64,000 nt of DNA from Nitrosomonas eutropha (GTDB lineage: Bacteria > Pseudomonadota > Gammaproteobacteria > Burkholderiales > Nitrosomonadaceae). Positions 2,917 through 12,229 of the stretch are shown here, piece after piece (within the stretch, counting starts at the first letter, position 1; every line of letters starts with the position of its first letter). Below the pieces are notes generated by a model. That model saw nothing but the letters and a program-made list of their open reading frames with translations. It searched no databases and had not been told where the DNA came from. The DNA is taken from positions 1 to 64,000 of the forward strand of contig NZ_QICQ01000014.1 of the NCBI RefSeq assembly GCF_003201195.1, given 5' to 3'. The translations under genes and the position numbers were made by a program.

Positions 2917-4044
2917 TCACCCGTTCCGCCTGGCACGAGCGCTCTTACCAGGAAATACTGACAAATAAAACTTGTAGATCAGATGTGGCAACAGGCGATA
3001 CAACGGCATGCGCAGCCAGTGGCTGCGCAAGTAGAGCAACAAACGCGCGAGTTCCGCCCGTTTTGATGGCTGATCAGGATGTTGCGGCAGCAACGCCAGC
3101 GGCACGCAATTATGCATGATGCGTAATGCCAGCCAGCCAGGTTGATGATTTAACCGTTTTTTCAGTTGATCCGGAACCGATGAGTGCAGTAATAAACGAC
3201 TAAAATAGAGGCTGTAAAAAAGCGGTCTACCCAGCCCAAGCCGGTTGGCGCGATTGATCAGCTTCTCCTGGAAAGACAACTGTTGCTGGCTGAAAAATTG
3301 CAAAATTTCATGAAAATCCAGCAAGTGACGTAGATCATCGGCCAATTCATTGTTCTGAAACAGATTGACTGCGCAGTGTAACAGCATGTCTTCCGGACTC
3401 AGCACATAAACACCTTCATCCTCCACTTTGATCGCTGCTTCCTGGAACGGTAGCGGATCAATTTTCAGATTGCCCAGCGGTGAGGAAAGCGTGTGATGCA
3501 CATCCACCTCAACCCCGCGCTCAGGATGCACCAACGCAGGAATTTCATGGCTCCATTCACGGTAATAGCGTTCATCATAATTGGTGAGCGCGTGGTGCTG
3601 CCAGCCTTTTTCCGACAGCACAGATTCAATCTGACCAAGAGCTTCCTTCGAAACCAGTAAATCCAGATCAGCAAAGATGCGCCCGGCAGCGTTCGGCAAA
3701 TCTTGTAGCTGATACGCCATGCCTTTAAGTACGATGATCAGGATCTCTCGGCCATCGAGCGCCCACAGTATTCGACTCAACTCCCAATTTACCGATTGCT
3801 GCTGTTTTTTTACCTGAATCAAACTGGAGCGCAACAGATTGACAGCTCGCTGCGGAATTTTATCCAGCAATCCATCTTTTTCCAGCCAGGCAGCAAGGTA
3901 ACCAAGCAACTTTGCGCGTCTTGCCACTCGCAACAGCAACTCCCATTGCGAATTACTGTAATCGATCAGGACAGCAGGCCGGATAATCGCTTCCAGCAGT
4001 AACTGGTGATGATCCAGCCTGGTATCAACCTTAAACTCAGCCAT
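2917..4044 (-). CDS. Nucleotidyltransferase family protein (PF14907-like), HprK/PqqD cassette
   Basis: This 375-residue protein resembles the uncharacterised nucleotidyltransferase family. A conserved Lys-Gly (107-108), an Asp-Leu-Asp pair (126-128) and a third acidic site in EVDVHH (179-183) match the metal-binding core of the polymerase-beta-like nucleotidyltransferase fold. The C-terminal half is helical and rich in Leu, His and Arg. It is the last gene of the cassette and overlaps the kinase stop by 8 bases, so translation is probably coupled. Members of this family occur in lasso-peptide and related clusters, where they are thought to transfer a nucleotide to a product. The substrate here is unknown. 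Confidence 0.75.
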   Translation of the reverse strand: MAEFKVDTRLDHHQLLLEAIIRPAVLIDYSNSQWELLLRVARRAKLLGYLAAWLEKDGLLDKIPQRAVNLLRSSLIQVKKQQQSVNWELSRILWALDGREILIIVLKGMAYQLQDLPNAAGRIFADLDLLVSKEALGQIESVLSEKGWQHHALTNYDERYYREWSHEIPALVHPERGVEVDVHHTLSSPLGNLKIDPLPFQEAAIKVEDEGVYVLSPEDMLLHCAVNLFQNNELADDLRHLLDFHEILQFFSQQQLSFQEKLINRANRLGLGRPLFYSLYFSRLLLHSSVPDQLKKRLNHQPGWLALRIMHNCVPLALLPQHPDQPSKRAELARLLLYLRSHWLRMPLYRLLPHLIYKFYLSVFPGKSARARRNG

Positions 4045-4945
4045 CGGTCAGTTCATCCAATGCAGCCAATGCACTGTCAAAATCGGAATACACCAGTTTG
4101 CGACACTCGCAGCTCCGAACCAGTCGCGTCACCGCATCAAATGCAGTTTCCCCCAGCACTTCGTAGTTGAATGCGTTTGTTGCAAGCAACAGAAACGCCT
4201 CGGATTGTGGCAAAGACTCCAGCCGCAAAGCAGCACCAGCTACCCATTTCGGGAAAACAATCCAGCGGGGTTGGGCAGCCTCATCTACCCGCTCAATACT
4301 TTCTTGCGGTGGACGTATATGCGCAACCGTGCCCTTTAATGTGCCAGGTATTTCTGGCCCCAGTATGGCTTCTGGCAGATAATCACGAATGATTTTAATG
4401 GATTGATTTTTGAGCGGCATCAGCCGGGGAAGTGGAAAAAAATCACCGATTTCAGGAGCCATCAGTCCGAATTCATCAGAAAACAGACGATAACCACGGT
4501 GCATGAGCATAGCGCTCAAAGTTGTCTTGCCGCTGCCCGGCCAAGCCGGCAGCAGTAGCACATGGCCGTTACGTTCCACTGCGGCAGAATGAAACAGCAA
4601 CAGATGATTGATGCGCATGGCAATGACAAGATTCACTCCCCATTCCAGGGTCGCCAGTGCCTGCTCTACGGAAACAGGCGGAAACGGGGAGCGGCCATCA
4701 ACTTCGAATCGGATCAATCGCGCAAATGGCTGTCTGATCGAGCGCTTGGGAATGACTCGGACATGAAATTCAACAATCTCGTCCTCATCCGCCAGTGAAT
4801 AGTGAGCATACATCTGGTGAAGCTGATGAATAAGTGATGGTAACCGGGTTTGAACAGATAGGTTGAACGGACCCATCTTTACCCGCAGACCTTGGCCAGC
4901 AAGCAATACACGCAATTCATCCAGTGAAAGCTGTTCGACCTTCAC
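4037..4945 (-). CDS. HprK-related kinase A
   Basis: This 302-residue protein resembles the C-terminal kinase domain of HPr kinase/phosphorylase. Visible motifs are FHSAAVERNG (118-127), a Walker A loop PGSGKTT (136-142) and SDEFGL (156-161), the counterpart of the catalytic acidic region. It lacks the HprK N-terminal domain; the first 100 residues are distinctive of the HprK-related A group. It starts with GTG, and the GTGA overlaps the stop of the PqqD-like gene, so the two are translationally coupled. HprK relatives in RiPP clusters phosphorylate a Ser of the precursor. No PTS-type HPr gene is nearby, so HPr itself is an unlikely substrate. The assignment to the family is firm; the target is unknown. 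Confidence 0.85.
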   Translation of the reverse strand: MKVEQLSLDELRVLLAGQGLRVKMGPFNLSVQTRLPSLIHQLHQMYAHYSLADEDEIVEFHVRVIPKRSIRQPFARLIRFEVDGRSPFPPVSVEQALATLEWGVNLVIAMRINHLLLFHSAAVERNGHVLLLPAWPGSGKTTLSAMLMHRGYRLFSDEFGLMAPEIGDFFPLPRLMPLKNQSIKIIRDYLPEAILGPEIPGTLKGTVAHIRPPQESIERVDEAAQPRWIVFPKWVAGAALRLESLPQSEAFLLLATNAFNYEVLGETAFDAVTRLVRSCECRKLVYSDFDSALAALDELTDG

Positions 4946-5229
4946 TCGTTTTCTTTTACCCTCTCGATCAGCCCTAGCGCCTCATAACGCTGTAAGGTCT
5001 GGGCAATTTTCCCGAAAAATTGAGTATCAGGCTGTAATGAAAAATGTACTGATAACTCCTGACAGATTGTATTGAGCCTGAGGGGAGAGCCATCAAGTAT
5101 CGTCAGAATATGCAACCCCATTTCATTCAAAAAATGGGTTTTCCCGGATTCAGGCTGGAACACGGTAAATTCACCATCCCAGTTTTCTATATACAGTGAC
5201 GAAAAATGAGATGAATACCAGCTATTCAT
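4942..5229 (-). CDS. PqqD-like peptide chaperone, HPr-rel-A type
   Basis: This 95-residue protein has the size and pattern of PqqD-type RiPP recognition elements: a beta-rich N-terminal half (FTVFQPESGKTHFLNEMG) followed by helices (ILTILDGSPLRLNTICQEL, GKIAQTLQRYEALGLIE). In this fold a winged helix-turn-helix binds the leader part of a substrate peptide and presents it to a modifying enzyme. It lies 24 bases after the small exported protein and overlaps the kinase gene by 4 bases. The natural inference is that it delivers a peptide, perhaps the product of 5254-5691, to the kinase and nucleotidyltransferase. No radical-SAM enzyme is present. Confidence 0.75.
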   Translation of the reverse strand: MNSWYSSHFSSLYIENWDGEFTVFQPESGKTHFLNEMGLHILTILDGSPLRLNTICQELSVHFSLQPDTQFFGKIAQTLQRYEALGLIERVKENE

Positions 5230-5253
5230 TCAATTTACCACTATTGCCAATTA

Positions 5254-5691
5254 TTATAAATCGCTGAAAAAACCTCTGCCTTGAAGAGATTGAAACGCAG
5301 TCACTGAAATCAGAATGCCTCCGCCTGTTTGGCAATTCTCTGCCTGTGTTGCCAAATCTTGCGATGCATCACCCAAGGCTGCTGTCGGATTCATGCCTAA
5401 ATCATAAGTGGAGCTACTTTCTTCAATAGGACCATCTCCGGGATTGACACACACGATTCGTGCTTGTTCCAGATCATTCATCTTCTTCGCCGCCGAATCC
5501 AGATCTGTAACCGCGCCTACCAGATTACTCGTCCGTGCCAGTGCTGCCCCGCTATGTAAGGTCATGATGACGGGAATGGCAACAGTACTTTTGAGCAATC
5601 GTCTGCGAGCCGGTTGGGAAAGAAGAGCAGCCGTCGTCTGTTTACTAGCTGCATCCTGTTTCAATTGTTCCGGTATATTTTTTTCCGACAT
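5254..5691 (-). CDS. Small Tat-like exported protein, candidate substrate of the HprK/PqqD cassette
   Basis: This 145-residue protein has no enzymatic fold that I recognise. A hydrophilic N-terminal stretch (1-28) leads into a twin-arginine-like motif RRRLLK (29-34), a hydrophobic segment (35-52) and a plausible cleavage site after ALA (50-52). The predicted mature part has only two cysteines (C81, C120), a Ser/Thr-rich patch ESSSTYD (91-97) and a Gly-rich end. A good ribosome binding site (GAGAGGTGAC) precedes the ATG. It is the first gene of the four-gene cassette, which makes it a candidate substrate or effector of the PqqD/kinase/nucleotidyltransferase set. That role is inference from position alone. 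Confidence 0.7.
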   Translation of the reverse strand: MSEKNIPEQLKQDAASKQTTAALLSQPARRRLLKSTVAIPVIMTLHSGAALARTSNLVGAVTDLDSAAKKMNDLEQARIVCVNPGDGPIEESSSTYDLGMNPTAALGDASQDLATQAENCQTGGGILISVTAFQSLQGRGFFSDL

Positions 5692-5964: not shown

Positions 5965-8900
5965 TCATCCGGCTTTTGCAGCCAGCAGCATTTCTGTTTT
6001 TAGCTGATGATCCGTTCCCCAGTGTTTGTAAAGCATATGGTACAACACTGGCAACACCAGTAATGTCAGGATAGTCGAGGAAAGGATGCCACCGATCACC
6101 ACTGTAGCCAATGGACGCTGCACTTCTGCACCCAGACCGGTTGCTAGCGCCATGGGAATGAAGCCAACTGCATCGGTGAGCGCAGTCATCAATACTGGCC
6201 GCAGCCGTGTCAGTGCACCAGTTTGGACAGCATCCATCAGCGCATGCCCATTCTGACGCAATTCCCGGATAAATGTCAGCATGACCAGCCCGTTCATCAC
6301 TGCAATTCCTGACAGGGCGATAAATCCGATTCCAGCAGAAATAGACAGCGGAATATCACGCAACCATAAAGCCAGTATTCCACCTGTCAGTGCGAATGGC
6401 ACGCCGGTAAATACCAGCATGCCATCCCGAAAATTACCGAACACAATGTAGAGCACAACAAAAATCAGCGTTAGCGCGACCGGCACCACAATTTGCAGAC
6501 GTTCCGCAGCTGAAATCATTTGTTCAAACTGCCCCCCCCACGCCAGCCAATACCCTGGGGGAATCTGTATTTCTTCATTCACCAGCGTCTGCGCTTCCTT
6601 GACGAAGGAACCAAGATCACGCCCGCGCACATTGGCAGATACCACCACCCGCCGCTTCCCGTTCTCACGGCTGATCTGGTTTGGCCCCTGCGCAATTTCA
6701 AAATCGGCCACCTCGCCCAGCGTCACAAAGGCAGCTGATCCAGCTGATGGCATCTGGCCAGCCAGCATCCCCTCCTGCACCCCAGACTGAACCGGCAGAC
6801 CAATCGGCAGGTAGCGTAATGCTTCAATATCCGTACGCAATGATTCGGGTAGCCGCACCTGCAGCTCAAAGCGGCGATCTCCTTCAAAAATCAAGCCTGC
6901 GCTTTTGCCACCAACCGCAATGGCCACAGTATCTTGCACATCTGCAACATTCAAACCATAACGTGAGATATTTGTGCGATTGGCTTGAATAGACAATACC
7001 GGCAATCCGGTTACTTGTTCCACTTTCACATCCGCAGCACCTGGCACGGTTGCCACCAACGCTTCAATACGTTTCCCCACAGCGAACAACTTATCCAGAT
7101 CGTCGCCGAATACCTTGATCGCCACATCGGCTCTCACACCGGCGATCAACTCATTGAAACGCATTTCAACCGGCTGGGTAAATTCATAATTGTTCCCTGG
7201 TACCTGCAATACTGCCTTTTCCATTGCAGCAATCAGCTCATCCTTGGTCCGGTAGCGGCCAGACCATTCCGATCGCGGTTTTAGCATGACAAAAATATCA
7301 GCCACACTGGGAGGCATCGGATCCGTTGCAACCTCTGCCGTTCCAATCTTGCTAAATACCCGCTCCACTTCAGGAAACGATTGGATTACTTTTTCCAACT
7401 CGCTTTGCATGGTGATAGCAGTAGAAAGGCTCGTCCCGGGAATCCGGATCGCGTGCAACGCAATATCCCCTTCATTCAGGTTAGGTACAAATTCGCTGCC
7501 CAGGCGGGTTACCAATAATATCGATAAAACCATGATGACTGCAGCAACGGTAATGGTTAGGCCCTGATTGCACATAACTGTCGCGAGCATCGGCTGATAG
7601 AAGCGTTTACACCACACAACGATCCAGCTTTCCTTTTCTGCCACTTTGCCAGTCAGAAACAGGGCTATCGCTGCCGGTACAAAAGTCACCGATAGAATCA
7701 ACGCACCCAGCAATGCTGCCACCACAGTAAACGCCATGGGATGAAACATCTTACCTTCGACACCAGACAAGGCAAAAATCGGCAGATAGACGATCATGAT
7801 GATCACCTGTCCGTAAATCAGCGCACGCCTTACCTGCTGAGTTGCTGTGAAAACCAGTTTCAGTCGTTCTTCCCGGCTTAACGTCCGTCCCAACCTGGCT
7901 TGTTCCTGGGAAAAACAGCGGATACAGTTCTCAATGATGACGATAACGCCATCCACGATAATGCCGAAATCCAGTGCGCCCAAACTCATCAGATTAGCGC
8001 TGACGTGATTAGCCGCCATGCCGCTAAATGTAAACAGCATCGATAACGGGATAACGAGTGCGGCAATTATCGCCGCACGAATATTGCCCAGAAACAGGAA
8101 CAAGACAACGATCACAAGAGAGGCCCCTTCAACCAGATTACTGGCCACGGTATGAATCGTGCCATCAATCAACGTGGTTCGATCGTACACCGGAACAGCC
8201 ACCACTCCAGCTGGCAGCGAACGGTTAATTTCCATCAGTTTATTGGCAACTGCATGCGCTACGGTACGGCTATTCTCTCCGATCAGCATATGGGCAGTTC
8301 CCAGCACCACCTCTTCACTATTACGGGTAGCAGCACCTGTACGCAACTCCTTGCCAATCAGGATATCAGCCACATCCTTGATGTGCAGCGGCGTACCTTG
8401 CCTACTACCCAGCGTAATCTCGCCAATCTCATCCAGATTGGTAACCTGCCCCGGTAAACGTACCAGGTACTGCTCGCCACGCTTCTCGATGTAACCCGCC
8501 CCCAGATTGAGGTTGTTGCGCTCCAGTGCAGTAACAATTTCCTGCAGGGTCAGGCCATAAGCGATGAGTTTTTCCGGATAGGGTGTGACGTGATATTGCT
8601 TGACGAATCCGCCGATGGTGTTGATCTCTGTCACCCCTTTCACCATGCGTAATTGCGGCCGGATGATCCAGTCCTGAATTTCACGCAGATCAGTGGATGT
8701 ATAGAGTGCGCCATCCGGTTTACGCGCGCCCGCAATACTTTCGACCGTCCACATGAATATTTCCCCTAAGCCAGTGGAAACAGGCCCCATTACCGGCTCG
8801 ACACCAACCGGCAATTGCCCTTTCGCCTCCTGGATACGCTGACCGACCAATTGACGGGCAAAATGAATGTCGGTTCCATCCTGAAATATCACCGTTACCT

Positions 8901-9174
8901 GGGATAACCCGTAGCGAGACAATGAGCGTGTGTAATCCAGCCCGGGCAACCCTGCCATAATGGTTTCTACCGGGAAAGTAATGCGTTGCTCGACTTCCAT
9001 GGGTGAATAGCCGGGTGCGGCCGTATTGATCTGCACCTGCACATTGGTAATGTCAGGCACGGCATCAATCGGCAATCGCTGGTAGCTATGCAAACCCAGC
9101 ACGGCCATAGCCAGAACGGCCAACAACACCAATCCGCGATGGCGAATCACGACATGTAGAATATGTTCAAACAT
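5965..9174 (-). CDS. czcA: CzcA-type heavy-metal efflux RND transporter
   Basis: This 1069-residue protein is an inner-membrane proton/cation antiporter of the heavy-metal efflux RND group. It has a first membrane helix near residues 13-30, two large periplasmic loops and the usual twelve-helix plan. The motif DFGIIVDGVIVIIEN near residue 400 is the HME1 form (DFGxxxDG...EN), which in characterised members goes with divalent Zn, Co and Cd rather than Cu or Ag. It would form a tripartite pump with the adaptor and outer-membrane genes just upstream. GGAG lies nine bases before the ATG, and the start overlaps the stop of a 37-codon ORF. The exact metal is not proven. Confidence 0.92.
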   Translation of the reverse strand: MFEHILHVVIRHRGLVLLAVLAMAVLGLHSYQRLPIDAVPDITNVQVQINTAAPGYSPMEVEQRITFPVETIMAGLPGLDYTRSLSRYGLSQVTVIFQDGTDIHFARQLVGQRIQEAKGQLPVGVEPVMGPVSTGLGEIFMWTVESIAGARKPDGALYTSTDLREIQDWIIRPQLRMVKGVTEINTIGGFVKQYHVTPYPEKLIAYGLTLQEIVTALERNNLNLGAGYIEKRGEQYLVRLPGQVTNLDEIGEITLGSRQGTPLHIKDVADILIGKELRTGAATRNSEEVVLGTAHMLIGENSRTVAHAVANKLMEINRSLPAGVVAVPVYDRTTLIDGTIHTVASNLVEGASLVIVVLFLFLGNIRAAIIAALVIPLSMLFTFSGMAANHVSANLMSLGALDFGIIVDGVIVIIENCIRCFSQEQARLGRTLSREERLKLVFTATQQVRRALIYGQVIIMIVYLPIFALSGVEGKMFHPMAFTVVAALLGALILSVTFVPAAIALFLTGKVAEKESWIVVWCKRFYQPMLATVMCNQGLTITVAAVIMVLSILLVTRLGSEFVPNLNEGDIALHAIRIPGTSLSTAITMQSELEKVIQSFPEVERVFSKIGTAEVATDPMPPSVADIFVMLKPRSEWSGRYRTKDELIAAMEKAVLQVPGNNYEFTQPVEMRFNELIAGVRADVAIKVFGDDLDKLFAVGKRIEALVATVPGAADVKVEQVTGLPVLSIQANRTNISRYGLNVADVQDTVAIAVGGKSAGLIFEGDRRFELQVRLPESLRTDIEALRYLPIGLPVQSGVQEGMLAGQMPSAGSAAFVTLGEVADFEIAQGPNQISRENGKRRVVVSANVRGRDLGSFVKEAQTLVNEEIQIPPGYWLAWGGQFEQMISAAERLQIVVPVALTLIFVVLYIVFGNFRDGMLVFTGVPFALTGGILALWLRDIPLSISAGIGFIALSGIAVMNGLVMLTFIRELRQNGHALMDAVQTGALTRLRPVLMTALTDAVGFIPMALATGLGAEVQRPLATVVIGGILSSTILTLLVLPVLYHMLYKHWGTDHQLKTEMLLAAKAG

Positions 9175-9280
9175 GAGTAGTATCTCCGCTCAATGTTGCC
9201 GCCAAAAACAAGATAAAACAGAAAACAGGCAATATGGCCCGGTTACGCAGACGATCAACCCATGTTTCCTCAATGCTCAT
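9167..9280 (-). CDS. Small single-span membrane protein between czcB and czcA
   Basis: This 37-codon reading frame encodes MSIEETWVDRLRNRAILPVF followed by CFILFLAATLSGDTTHV, with one hydrophobic helix at about residues 15-31. Its ATG lies inside the last codons of czcB, with GGAG six bases upstream, and its TGA overlaps the czcA start. Both junctions therefore look translationally coupled. The N-terminus resembles the cytoplasmic start of an RND pump subunit, so it may be an accessory peptide of the pump or merely a translational bridge. I recognise no family. A longer in-frame start at 9352 lies wholly inside czcB and is less likely. Confidence 0.5.
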   Translation of the reverse strand: MSIEETWVDRLRNRAILPVFCFILFLAATLSGDTTHV

Positions 9281-10766
9281 GTACTGCTCCAGCCTTCCCC
9301 AGCTCTGATTTAATGATGAAGCTGTTACTCGCTGCGTAGTCTTCGCCTGCAAACAAGCCTTCGACTACCTCAGCCATCTGGCTATCGCTGCGGCCTAGTT
9401 TGAGCGGACGCATTTCGAAATACTCTCCGTAGCGACCAAACACTACCGACTGGTCATTCAGTGTCTGTATCGCTTCCAGCGACACCGCCACCGGGACTTC
9501 GACTGCTTCGGTCTGCAAATCGGCCTTGACGAACATGCCAGGGCGCCATTGTTCATCCCGATTATCGAGCTGCACCCGGGCAATAGCTGTGCGTGTTTGC
9601 TCGTCAAGCAGTGTCGTCACGTAAATTACCTTACCTTCCCGCGTCAAATCATAGGCATTTGCCCGGATGACAGCCTGCTGACCTATGTGAACCTGATGCA
9701 GATTCCGGGGGAATACCCTGACAGCCGCCCAGACTGTGGAAATGTCAGCAACGATATACGCAGTCTTATCCTCCTTGACGACCTCTCCTGTAACAATTGC
9801 TTCATCAATGACAATCCCGGAAATAGGAGAACGGATTTTATAATGCGCAATATTTTCCCAAGACAACCCGGATTCTGGTTGTACGCCCAGCGCTCGCAAG
9901 CGCTCGGCTGCCAGCTGGGTTGCTATGCTGGCTTCTTCCCGTTGCTGTTGTGCCACAAGGTAATCCTGTTTTGCTGTGATTTTTTCCCGCCACAACTGCT
10001 CTTCCCGATCATAAATTGTTTGTGCCAGCACCAAGCGCTTGCGGGCAAGCAGGTATTGACTGCGCAAATCGGCCAGCATGGCACTTTCCATGATCGCAAG
10101 TACCTCTCCCTTTTTCACTCTTTGTCCGTGATGGCGTTTAATCGACACCACCATGCCGGGCAAACGCGGCACGACATGCACGATATGATGTTCATTGAAA
10201 ATAATTTCGCCCGGCAGCGTAATTTTAGAGTGAATGGCGGCAGGACCAGCTGTGGCCAGTTCAATACCGTTGCTTTGCATCGCCGTATCGGACATTTCTA
10301 CACGCGCCTCAACCTCGCTGTGATGCCAGCGATAGGTCTTGCCCTGATATTCAGCGACAATGATCAGCTCGAAAGAATGAGGTTCTCCCACTTCCTGATC
10401 GCTAACCAGATAGTCACTTTCCGGCCTGAAGTGAAACAGTTGCGCCGGCCTGCCAAGACGGGACAATACAATCGTTACCTTTACTTCAGTCGGTGCCAGT
10501 GGTTGTTTCTGTCGATATGGATAGAGCCTGAATTGTGGAAACGTGCCACTCTCATGAATAGTCAACTCAAGGCTTAAATCATCTTCCGAGAACAGCTCCC
10601 CGCCCTTCGGTCCGATTGTTGATTGATGTTCAGTTGTCCCTGCAAAAGAATGAGATGACTCTTCAGCATCCGGCAGCCTGAATTTATCCTGGATCAAAAG
10701 CAACGCCCCTAGCAAAATGCCAACCAGAATAACTGCCACAATGGGTAATCGTCCGCTAACGTTCAT
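9270..10766 (-). CDS. czcB: CzcB-type periplasmic adaptor (membrane fusion protein)
   Basis: This 498-residue protein links the CzcA pump to its outer-membrane channel. An N-terminal membrane anchor (about 8-26) is followed by an extra N-terminal domain (about 45-155) typical of Czc-type adaptors. Then come the barrel-sandwich/lipoyl half-motifs (PRLPGMVVSIKRHHGQRVKK near 200 and the matching IRSPISGIV near 315), a helical hairpin (about 225-300) and a beta-barrel end. A His at the C-terminal GAVHEH may bind metal, but this is speculative. The start overlaps the czcC stop by 4 bases. Next in the operon come the 37-codon ORF and czcA. Confidence 0.9.
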   Translation of the reverse strand: MNVSGRLPIVAVILVGILLGALLLIQDKFRLPDAEESSHSFAGTTEHQSTIGPKGGELFSEDDLSLELTIHESGTFPQFRLYPYRQKQPLAPTEVKVTIVLSRLGRPAQLFHFRPESDYLVSDQEVGEPHSFELIIVAEYQGKTYRWHHSEVEARVEMSDTAMQSNGIELATAGPAAIHSKITLPGEIIFNEHHIVHVVPRLPGMVVSIKRHHGQRVKKGEVLAIMESAMLADLRSQYLLARKRLVLAQTIYDREEQLWREKITAKQDYLVAQQQREEASIATQLAAERLRALGVQPESGLSWENIAHYKIRSPISGIVIDEAIVTGEVVKEDKTAYIVADISTVWAAVRVFPRNLHQVHIGQQAVIRANAYDLTREGKVIYVTTLLDEQTRTAIARVQLDNRDEQWRPGMFVKADLQTEAVEVPVAVSLEAIQTLNDQSVVFGRYGEYFEMRPLKLGRSDSQMAEVVEGLFAGEDYAASNSFIIKSELGKAGAVHEH

Positions 10767-12229
10767 TGATTACGCTCCTTCCCTTGAGTATTGAGCTTTG
10801 TGTAATCTGCAGCTGAATCAGCAAGCGGTGCTGCAATCAACTGCTCGATGATATTGACCAGACGTTGATAATTGGCCAGTGCCCGCACATAAAGAATACG
10901 ATTCTGGAAAAAAGCGCGCTGGGTATCCAGCATTTCCAGAAAACTGAATTTACCCAGCTGGTAACCCCGATTGGTAATCTCAAAGGCATTCTGCGCACCC
11001 GGCAACACCTCATCATGCAATACCCGAATCTCATTCCGGGCAGCCAGCAGATTCTCGTAGTTACGTGCAAATTCTGTTCTAAGTTGCAATTCAACGGACG
11101 CGCGTTCATCCATTGCTTTATTCAGGCGCTGGCGGGCTTCCAATTCATTTCCCTGATTACGATCGAAAATTGGAATAGGAATAGATATATCCAGCACAGC
11201 AGTAGTCTTGTTTAGACTGAAATAGCGCTGAATACCTGCACCAACTGTTACATCAGGAATTTTATTCGCTTTTTGCAACTCGACCATCGCCTCACGCTGC
11301 GCGATATTTTTAAGGCTTTGCAGCATAATCGGGTTTTCTTCAAGGCGTTTTACCAGCTGATCAAATTCCGGTATCTCAACAAATGATTCCAGTTCTCCCA
11401 AGGCCTGGCCGAAGCGCGGCTCCGCCTCCCCCCAGAGAAGCGCCAACTTTGCCCGCGCCGCTGACAAATTGCGCCTACCCTGTTCCAGTTCAATACTCGC
11501 AGCGGATAATGCTACCTTTGAACGAGTAGCTTCAATAGGCGGCGCTTTCCCCGCTTCGACCCGTTTCACAACTGTTTTCATTGCCTTTTGCATCAGACGC
11601 AAAGTGTCGTCCATCACGCTTACATGCACCTGATTTTCCAGCACATCAATAAAAGCATTAGCAGTACGGGCAACAACTTCCAACCGTTTGGCAGCATAAG
11701 CCTGATCGGCCAGCTCCTGCCCCAGTGTTGCCACATTCACCCGGGCAGATCGCTTACCACCAAGCTCAATCAACTGACTGATACGGAAAGTTGTAAACCT
11801 TTCTATATTCGGGTTAGAGGAATCAATACTTTCTGCCCCAACACTGAATTCAGGATTTTTCAGCAAACCGGCCTGTAATTTTGTCCCTTCATAAGCAGCC
11901 ACTTCTCTGGAAAAAGCTGCCAGTTCAGGATTATTCTGCAAAACCTGCTGCAACGCCTGACGCAAGGTCAGATCCTCACCTTTCTCAGCCGATATATTGA
12001 TGACTGGATGAGTATCGGCATAAGCCATACCATGCCCCAAGATAGGTATAATTCCCGCAAAGAATGATGCAAAGACCAGCACCATCTGCCTTGTACGAAG
12101 TTGTCGCAATATTGCCTTCGCTGTCTGATACTCAATCACGATGATTCCCCATGAACAGTCATGCCGTAAGTACACACCGGATATCACGAAAACAACCTCA
12201 ATATTCAAAATACAAGACTGTTTCTGCAA
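10763..12229 (-). CDS. czcC: CzcC-type outer-membrane efflux protein (TolC family)
   Basis: The frame encodes 488 residues of a TolC-like outer-membrane factor with two OEP repeats (about 85-270 and 290-470). These form the trimeric exit duct of the metal pump. The first codons do not look like a signal peptide. A later GTG at 12139 (GGGGAA six bases upstream) or ATG at 12085 gives MVLVFASFFAGIIPILGHGM ending in AYA, a clear signal sequence, so the true start is probably one of these. It is the first structural gene of czcCBA, overlapping czcB by 4 bases. Confidence 0.88.
   Translation of the reverse strand: MQKQSCILNIEVVFVISGVYLRHDCSWGIIVIEYQTAKAILRQLRTRQMVLVFASFFAGIIPILGHGMAYADTHPVINISAEKGEDLTLRQALQQVLQNNPELAAFSREVAAYEGTKLQAGLLKNPEFSVGAESIDSSNPNIERFTTFRISQLIELGGKRSARVNVATLGQELADQAYAAKRLEVVARTANAFIDVLENQVHVSVMDDTLRLMQKAMKTVVKRVEAGKAPPIEATRSKVALSAASIELEQGRRNLSAARAKLALLWGEAEPRFGQALGELESFVEIPEFDQLVKRLEENPIMLQSLKNIAQREAMVELQKANKIPDVTVGAGIQRYFSLNKTTAVLDISIPIPIFDRNQGNELEARQRLNKAMDERASVELQLRTEFARNYENLLAARNEIRVLHDEVLPGAQNAFEITNRGYQLGKFSFLEMLDTQRAFFQNRILYVRALANYQRLVNIIEQLIAAPLADSAADYTKLNTQGKERNQ

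Follow-up and report, generated by a model that had tools for sequence, protein, structure and literature searches.

In a 64,000-nucleotide stretch of DNA from the ammonia oxidizer Nitrosomonas eutropha (family Nitrosomonadaceae, class Gammaproteobacteria; NCBI RefSeq assembly GCF_003201195.1, contig NZ_QICQ01000014.1, positions 1 to 64,000; hereafter "the window"), four linked minus-strand open reading frames (ORFs) at 2917–5691 encode a small protein with a twin-arginine translocation (Tat) signal, a PqqD-like protein, an HprK-related kinase, and a nucleotidyltransferase. The co-occurrence of these genes in other genomes is far beyond chance. Two points go further than the initial annotation: the Tat protein is a constant partner of the other three rather than a mere neighbor, and a conserved serine within it is the likely target of the enzymes. 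We consider it probable that the four genes constitute one stand-alone modification unit, in which this serine is phosphorylated, the phosphate is extended by the nucleotidyltransferase, and the protein is exported by Tat. A broader proposal, which we hold somewhat short of probable, is that such cassettes represent an undescribed and widespread class of ribosomal modification in Pseudomonadota. In this RiPP-like pathway, one serine of a protein would be phosphorylated and then capped with a sugar or nucleotide in the cytoplasm before Tat export, with the Tat signal serving as leader and Tat as exporter; the two substrate architectures would differ in which end of the mature protein bears the modified serine.

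The layout described in the initial annotation was borne out to the base. The gene of the 145–amino acid Tat-signal protein, the proposed substrate or precursor (5254–5691, minus strand), is separated by 24 bases (5230–5253) from that of a 95–amino acid PqqD-family peptide chaperone of the HPr-rel-A system (4942–5229, minus strand; TIGR04353, 77.6 bits, cut-off 35). The latter overlaps by 4 bases (4942–4945) with the gene of HprK-related kinase A, which has a GTG start and encodes 302 amino acids (4037–4945, minus strand; TIGR04352, 346.7 bits, cut-off 200), and this in turn overlaps by 8 bases (4037–4044) with the gene of an NTP_transf_5 nucleotidyltransferase of 375 amino acids (2917–4044, minus strand; PF14907, 203 bits, cut-off 31.2). 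The family calls made earlier for all three proteins stand, as does the Tat signal of the 145–amino acid protein. The initial annotation had also remarked on the absence of a cyclase, protease, or radical-SAM gene; this holds for the genes adjacent to the cassette in the window, since its neighbors are an MgtE transporter (Pfam search) and the ORFs of a putative efflux operon. Likewise, no lasso macrolactam cyclase gene lies adjacent (the cyclase family was not searched genome-wide), and no match to Transglut_core3 (PF13471, the lasso B2 protease) occurs anywhere in the genome, so that the product is presumably not threaded. The genome encodes TatC (236.9 bits), which together with the twin-arginine signal makes the small protein a predicted Tat substrate, and a search up to an E value of 1 found no second Tat protein of the cassette kind in it.

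Across genomes, we found the kinase above the TIGR04352 cut-off in 41 of 369 genomes sampled from the class, in 12 of 61 from the family, and in 61 of 398 from Pseudomonadota (at least four genomes are common to the phylum and class samples). None of 14 control genomes had such a kinase. TIGR04353 exceeded its cut-off in 34 of the 369 class genomes. Gene order was compared in the window, in 50 loci with flanks of up to 8 kb, and in 80 named loci that a genome-collection scan supplied, together 129 loci after removal of two duplicates (L097 and L100). The named loci span Nitrosomonas, Accumulibacter, Thiobacillus, Gallionellaceae, Chromatiaceae, Oxalobacteraceae, Zooshikella, Magnetococcales, and two Planctomycetes assemblies. 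The gene set proved constant: the Tat gene was present in 122 of the 129 loci (four copies missed by the profile, in L058, L065, L125, and L170, were added by eye), 108 loci displayed the order Tat-PqqD-kinase-nucleotidyltransferase, and in 10 the nucleotidyltransferase gene was divergent, in front of the Tat gene. The other arrangements were two loci without a nucleotidyltransferase gene, each near a contig end, one with the PqqD gene after the kinase gene, and one without a detected PqqD gene; chaperone-kinase, kinase-nucleotidyltransferase, and Tat-chaperone fusions were found in none of the 129. Among the seven loci without a Tat gene, the kinase lies within 1.3 kb of a contig end in five, and in L048, L088, L113, and L119 the Tat gene would fall off the contig. 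This co-occurrence, with a Tat gene in 122 of 129 loci, strongly supports the suggestion of the initial annotation that the genes form a stand-alone four-gene unit; the refuting outcome named there, a lack of co-occurrence in other genomes, did not materialize.

The Tat proteins, of about 74 to 290 amino acids, split into two kinds, SHORT, to which the window protein belongs, and LONG. The twin Arg is invariant in the aligned members of both (26/26 SHORT and 25/25 LONG). In the window protein, the twin-arginine signal region comprises residues 29–52 (RRRLLKSTVAIPVIMTLHSGAALA; 5536–5607, minus strand), of which R29, R30, and P40 are invariant in 26/26, and cleavage would occur after A52. The invariant columns of the SHORT alignment are Met1, the twin Arg, the signal Pro, and Ser135 (codon 5287–5289, minus strand; 26/26), the proposed modified residue, which lies within the C-terminal motif LISVTAFQSL (residues 127–136; 5284–5313, minus strand). 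The general SHORT pattern is approximately [hydrophobic][ST][AG][ST][CA][LWYF]xS, followed by a hydrophobic residue. LONG proteins carry a CxxSGxxSGNxS-type motif right behind the signal and then a domain with PGYW, and the only invariant columns of their alignment are two Arg and two Ser (25/25).

Conservation of a single column was dropped as proof of the serine after a shuffle control and replaced by a motif test. An ungapped expectation-maximization (EM) search for a 9-mer in 29 SHORT proteins reached a score of 460, whereas 60 shuffles averaged 305 (SD 7.5, maximum 331; z ~ 21). The effort was unequal, with 120 starts for the real set and 25 per shuffle, but a difference as large as that between 460 and 331 makes this immaterial. 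The picked segments lay 2 to 14 residues from the C terminus in 28 of the 29 proteins and ended in Ser in 27 (the pick fell off the motif in L105 and L106), and Ser varied least of all motif positions (0.88 in the EM profile), while the Nitrosomonas proteins have Ala in place of Cys. Trained on 24 LONG and 29 SHORT members, models separated the two kinds: the LONG profile matched 75 of 76 LONG-labeled proteins and none of 46 SHORT ones, and the C-terminal motif was passed by 43 of 46 SHORT proteins (in L106 to L108 the motif is off-register) and by 0 of 76 in the LONG group. No family in Pfam or NCBIfam credibly matches the window Tat protein, and the scan of 24 family members returned one weak TAT_signal match in Pfam and two weak unrelated matches in NCBIfam. 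For the LONG mature domain (model confidence pLDDT 80.7), two Foldseek passes gave no credible match in the PDB, which is not evidence of a new fold, and a PDB sequence search with the LONG Tat profile gave nothing credible. The shortest Tat partner observed (L081:7332–7553) has 74 amino acids, barely more than the signal plus GSACISCNASLI, and looks like a true precursor peptide.

The kinase tracks the kind of Tat protein. In a maximum-likelihood kinase tree (122 sequences), the SHORT/LONG label, re-checked by the models, switches only once, at a fully supported branch (100/100, with the bootstrap not yet fully converged), compared with a mean of 37 changes for shuffled labels. The SHORT clade has hosts among the beta- and gammaproteobacteria and the Magnetococcales as well as in a planctomycete assembly, and the cassettes therefore appear to move as units. 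The serine motif goes with the cassette. The LONG mature domain was matched in 36 of the 369 class genomes, 30 of which are kinase-positive with the match beside the kinase gene, as judged by comparing coordinates; SHORT proteins account for 10 of the 11 kinase-positive genomes left over, and the last, G259, is truncated at a contig end. The remaining six LONG-domain genomes are five kinase-negative ones and G015, whose match lies away from its cassette; five of the six (G015, G080, G084, G099, and G215) match only from model position 22 onward, beyond the serine part, and the match in G022 is spurious, with internal stops. In three of the five, viewed as sequence (L179, L180, and L181; frames of 650, 290, and 207 residues), the GYW-type domain of LONG Tat proteins sits near the C terminus of another protein and lacks the serine motif; no Pfam family covered this domain in the 24 Tat proteins scanned. 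In L183 (G296:C20), a second Tat protein with the CTLSGMMSGNVS serine motif is unlinked to the cassette of the same genome, and the machinery may serve more than one substrate.

The frozen models were applied to 55 further loci from the phylum search, of which L243 and L247 were identical to the training loci L157 and L124 and were dropped, leaving 53. With the Tat profile, 38 of these yielded an upstream ORF. Of the 38 ORFs, 20 passed the SHORT motif (including L248, which scored on its signal peptide but has a similar SCLDS stretch near its end) and 5 passed the LONG profile, or 25 of 38 in all, compared with 2 of 723 ORFs in a reverse-strand control on all 55 loci. In the 15 loci without a profile match, a Tat protein was recognized by eye in eight, which brings the count to 46 of 53. 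Two plasmid copies outside the training set display similar motifs by eye: a Sphingomonas protein ends in TCFLSVQNPRT, and a Vibrio protein carries CSITSCMSGNAS after its signal.

The putative catalytic residues of both enzymes are intact. The kinase profile matches the HprK structures 1jb1 (E = 0.0019), 2qmh, and 1ko7 (E = 0.002 to 0.01), and the histidine, P-loop, and acidic catalytic region of HprK align with the window kinase, whose P-loop AWPGSGKTT (residues 134–142; 4520–4546, minus strand) provides K140 to a putative catalytic set with H119, D157, and E158, identical in 122 of 122 kinases. It differs from HprK in having E158 where the aligned HprK has Asp, and in its gene partners, and none of the five NCBIfam matches listed for it is the canonical HprK model. 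The nucleotidyltransferase is of the polymerase-β type, with a DxD motif (D126 and D128; 3661–3669, minus strand) and a third carboxylate, D181 (3502–3504), and its predicted model matches the fold; K107, G108, D126, D128, and D181 are invariant in 35 of 35 proteins. A PDB sequence search with it returned nothing up to an E value of 1. The PqqD-like protein scores 22.2 bits with Pfam PqqD, just under the cut-off of 23.4, and 14.5 bits with the PqqD equivalog of pyrroloquinoline quinone biosynthesis (TIGR03859), well under its cut-off of 46; the chaperone profile matches lasso B1 structures weakly (best E = 0.18).

Our proposed mechanism infers which reactions take place and in what order, what the chaperone does, and where the product ends up and how it functions; it would run as follows. 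In the cytoplasm, the PqqD-like protein would present the Tat-signal protein to the HprK-type kinase, which would phosphorylate one conserved serine. This would be Ser135 in the C-terminal motif of the window protein and, in LONG proteins, one of the serines in the CxxSGxxSGNxS-type motif. The polymerase-β-fold nucleotidyltransferase would then attach a nucleotide or sugar to the serine phosphate, and the finished, non-cyclized protein would be exported by Tat. Tat carries folded, finished proteins, so that ATP-dependent modification in the cytoplasm followed by export is a coherent order, and with export by Tat the usual exporter and dedicated leader peptidase of ribosomally synthesized and post-translationally modified peptides (RiPPs) would not be needed.

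This logic has precedents. The kinase and chaperone of the window exceed both cut-offs of the HPr-rel-A system (TIGR04352 HprK_rel_A and TIGR04353 PqqD_rel_X), for which we found no NCBIfam model of the window Tat protein or nucleotidyltransferase; in two plasmids that we examined, the gene table labels the upstream protein "hypothetical." The comparison drawn in the initial annotation with the kinase plus nucleotidyltransferase of lasso peptides is apt: PMC9266682 and PMC8498205 describe phosphorylation of the C-terminal serine of the paeninodin precursor by the kinase PadeK and addition of hexoses to the serine phosphate of pseudomycoidin by the nucleotidyltransferase PsmN, i.e., a kinase aimed at a C-terminal serine and a nucleotidyltransferase working on its phosphate. 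Our cassette differs in that no lasso cyclase or B2 protease gene is adjacent, and in its export. A closer, cyclase-free precedent is that of the linear polyphosphorylated peptides (LPP peptides) of Bacillota, which, according to a 2026 paper (PMC13381572), combine a discrete RiPP recognition element (RRE), an HprK-like kinase, and a nucleoside triphosphate (NTP) transferase without a cyclase; their variable precursors have one phosphorylated serine, LppK phosphorylates Ser3 only with Thr being no replacement, and LppN was without activity in the test host. The window similarly encodes an HprK-like kinase and an NTP transferase together without an adjacent cyclase. Unlike LPP loci, it has no adjacent SpI-like peptidase or MsbA-like exporter gene (among the families listed for 114 flanking proteins of 42 loci, the 25 commonest include neither), its leader is a Tat signal without [YW]xxP (1 of 122 Tat proteins), cassette hosts are mostly Pseudomonadota, and the conserved serine lies near the C terminus or just after the signal of proteins of ~74 to 290 amino acids.

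Several observations weigh against a stand-alone modification unit acting on the conserved serine. L168 has no Tat candidate despite 1.2 kb of upstream sequence and is perhaps a true exception, and in L047 and L114 a contig end offers no excuse for the missing gene. Among the new loci, a Tat ORF was not found in 7 of 53, and 13 of the 38 profile-found ORFs pass neither frozen model (12 of these end, by eye, in a sub-threshold CxxS-type motif; L264 does not), while L173 in the original set fits neither kind and was counted as LONG by default. Fully invariant columns also arose in 4 of 60 shuffled SHORT alignments and 15 of 60 shuffled LONG alignments, which makes the invariance of a single serine weak evidence and leaves the case to the motif, for which the shuffle test covers the SHORT kind only. 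Linked inheritance alone could yield the congruence of kinase and substrate. At the fourth catalytic position of the kinase, Glu stands in place of the Asp of lasso kinases, and the leader motif of lasso and LPP precursors, [YW]xxP (in full, [YW]xxPx[LVIFA]), was detected in just 1 of 122 Tat proteins. The inactivity of LppN in its test host makes the nucleotidyltransferase step the least certain one.

Moreover, the conserved motif near the C terminus could be a docking tag instead of the modified site. In this alternative, which we regard as unlikely, the motif would be recognized by the kinase or the PqqD-like protein, and another part of the Tat protein would hold the residue that is modified. 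The serine does sit, like part of a binding tag, within a nine-residue motif that has conserved Cys/Ala and aromatic neighbors, and with [YW]xxP nearly absent, the binding site must lie elsewhere. Ser is, however, the most constant position of this motif, whereas Cys gives way to Ala in Nitrosomonas, and the LPP and paeninodin kinases act on a single conserved serine of this type.

One could also imagine no modification pathway at all, the kinase homolog acting as an ATP-driven chaperone or quality-control gate for the Tat substrate and the nucleotidyltransferase being regulatory. It is common for Tat substrates to have chaperones in the cytoplasm. The deletion of lppN without detectable change in the heterologous host (PMC13381572) would fit such a scheme. 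The invariance of the putative catalytic residues, in 122 of 122 kinases and 35 of 35 nucleotidyltransferases, argues against it, and no Tat chaperone is known that consists of a kinase and a nucleotidyltransferase; we judge it improbable. We give very little credence to a toxin-antitoxin or defense cassette built around a MenT/AbiE-type nucleotidyltransferase: the distribution is indeed patchy (12 of 61 genomes in the family, 41 of 369 in the class) and the toxins MenT1 and MenT3 are among the top structural matches of the nucleotidyltransferase model, but ANT(2'') and other non-toxins share this fold, none of the four proteins matches PADLOC at an E value of 0.001, and a Tat-signal partner and a PqqD chaperone are not known from such systems. 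Finally, although the NCBIfam system name covers chaperone and kinase only, the notion that the Tat gene is an unrelated neighbor of this known pair is scarcely tenable, being contradicted by its presence in 122 of 129 loci, by the single order in 108 of them, and by the two Tat kinds that track the kinase tree.

The chaperone-kinase pair already has a name, and lasso and LPP peptides provide the helper logic; what seems new, as far as the literature was searched, is that a Tat protein constantly accompanies the helpers, that it comes in two architectures, and that it offers a candidate serine. A literature search on the HPr-rel-A family names gave no match, searches with combinations of PqqD, HprK, twin-arginine, RiPP, and NTP transferase gave nothing on this cassette in the titles and abstract beginnings of the papers listed, and the words "HPr" and "kinase" are absent from the RRE-Finder paper and a 2025 RRE paper (word search only). 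Reading the cassette as a stand-alone modification unit gives this patchily distributed set (61 of 398 Pseudomonadota genomes) a concrete proposed substrate, names a candidate for the target residue, and predicts a reaction that can be tested. If true, RiPP-style modification logic would be tied to Tat export, and the cassette would offer a second, independent setting for learning the role of the puzzling "nucleotidyltransferase" of phosphorylated lasso peptides.

We made some further observations on the loci and their surroundings. In L114, a transposase-like ORF (recognized by eye) lies ~350 to 1200 bases upstream of the kinase gene, in the expected Tat position, and the Tat gene was not found elsewhere in that locus. 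On a Vibrio alfacsensis plasmid, an 84–amino acid ORF (L185:4757–5011) that is missing from the plasmid's incomplete gene table lies between the Tat and kinase genes, where the PqqD-like gene is expected. HprK-like kinases below the TIGR04352 cut-off (~40 to 105 bits; G123:C423, G036:C77, G360:C15, G352:C7, and G256:C1) were found a few hundred bases from PqqD-like ORFs under the TIGR04353 cut-off, and such pairs possibly form a sister system with substrates of its own. Flanking genes were tried as a functional clue and dropped, as the 114 proteins from 42 loci shared no common partner: a trypsin-like domain was the commonest Pfam family (7 of 114), response regulators came next, a few polysaccharide-export and PEP-CTERM genes were also present, and a rough motif count found GDSGG-type proteases in just 2 of 164 flanking ORFs. 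Promoter and terminator scans gave no excess over shuffles. Upstream of the cassette, three same-strand ORFs at 5965–12229 are read, without a family search, as a putative Cus-type heavy-metal RND efflux operon, and an ORF of ~1060 amino acids is also found upstream in several Nitrosomonas loci.

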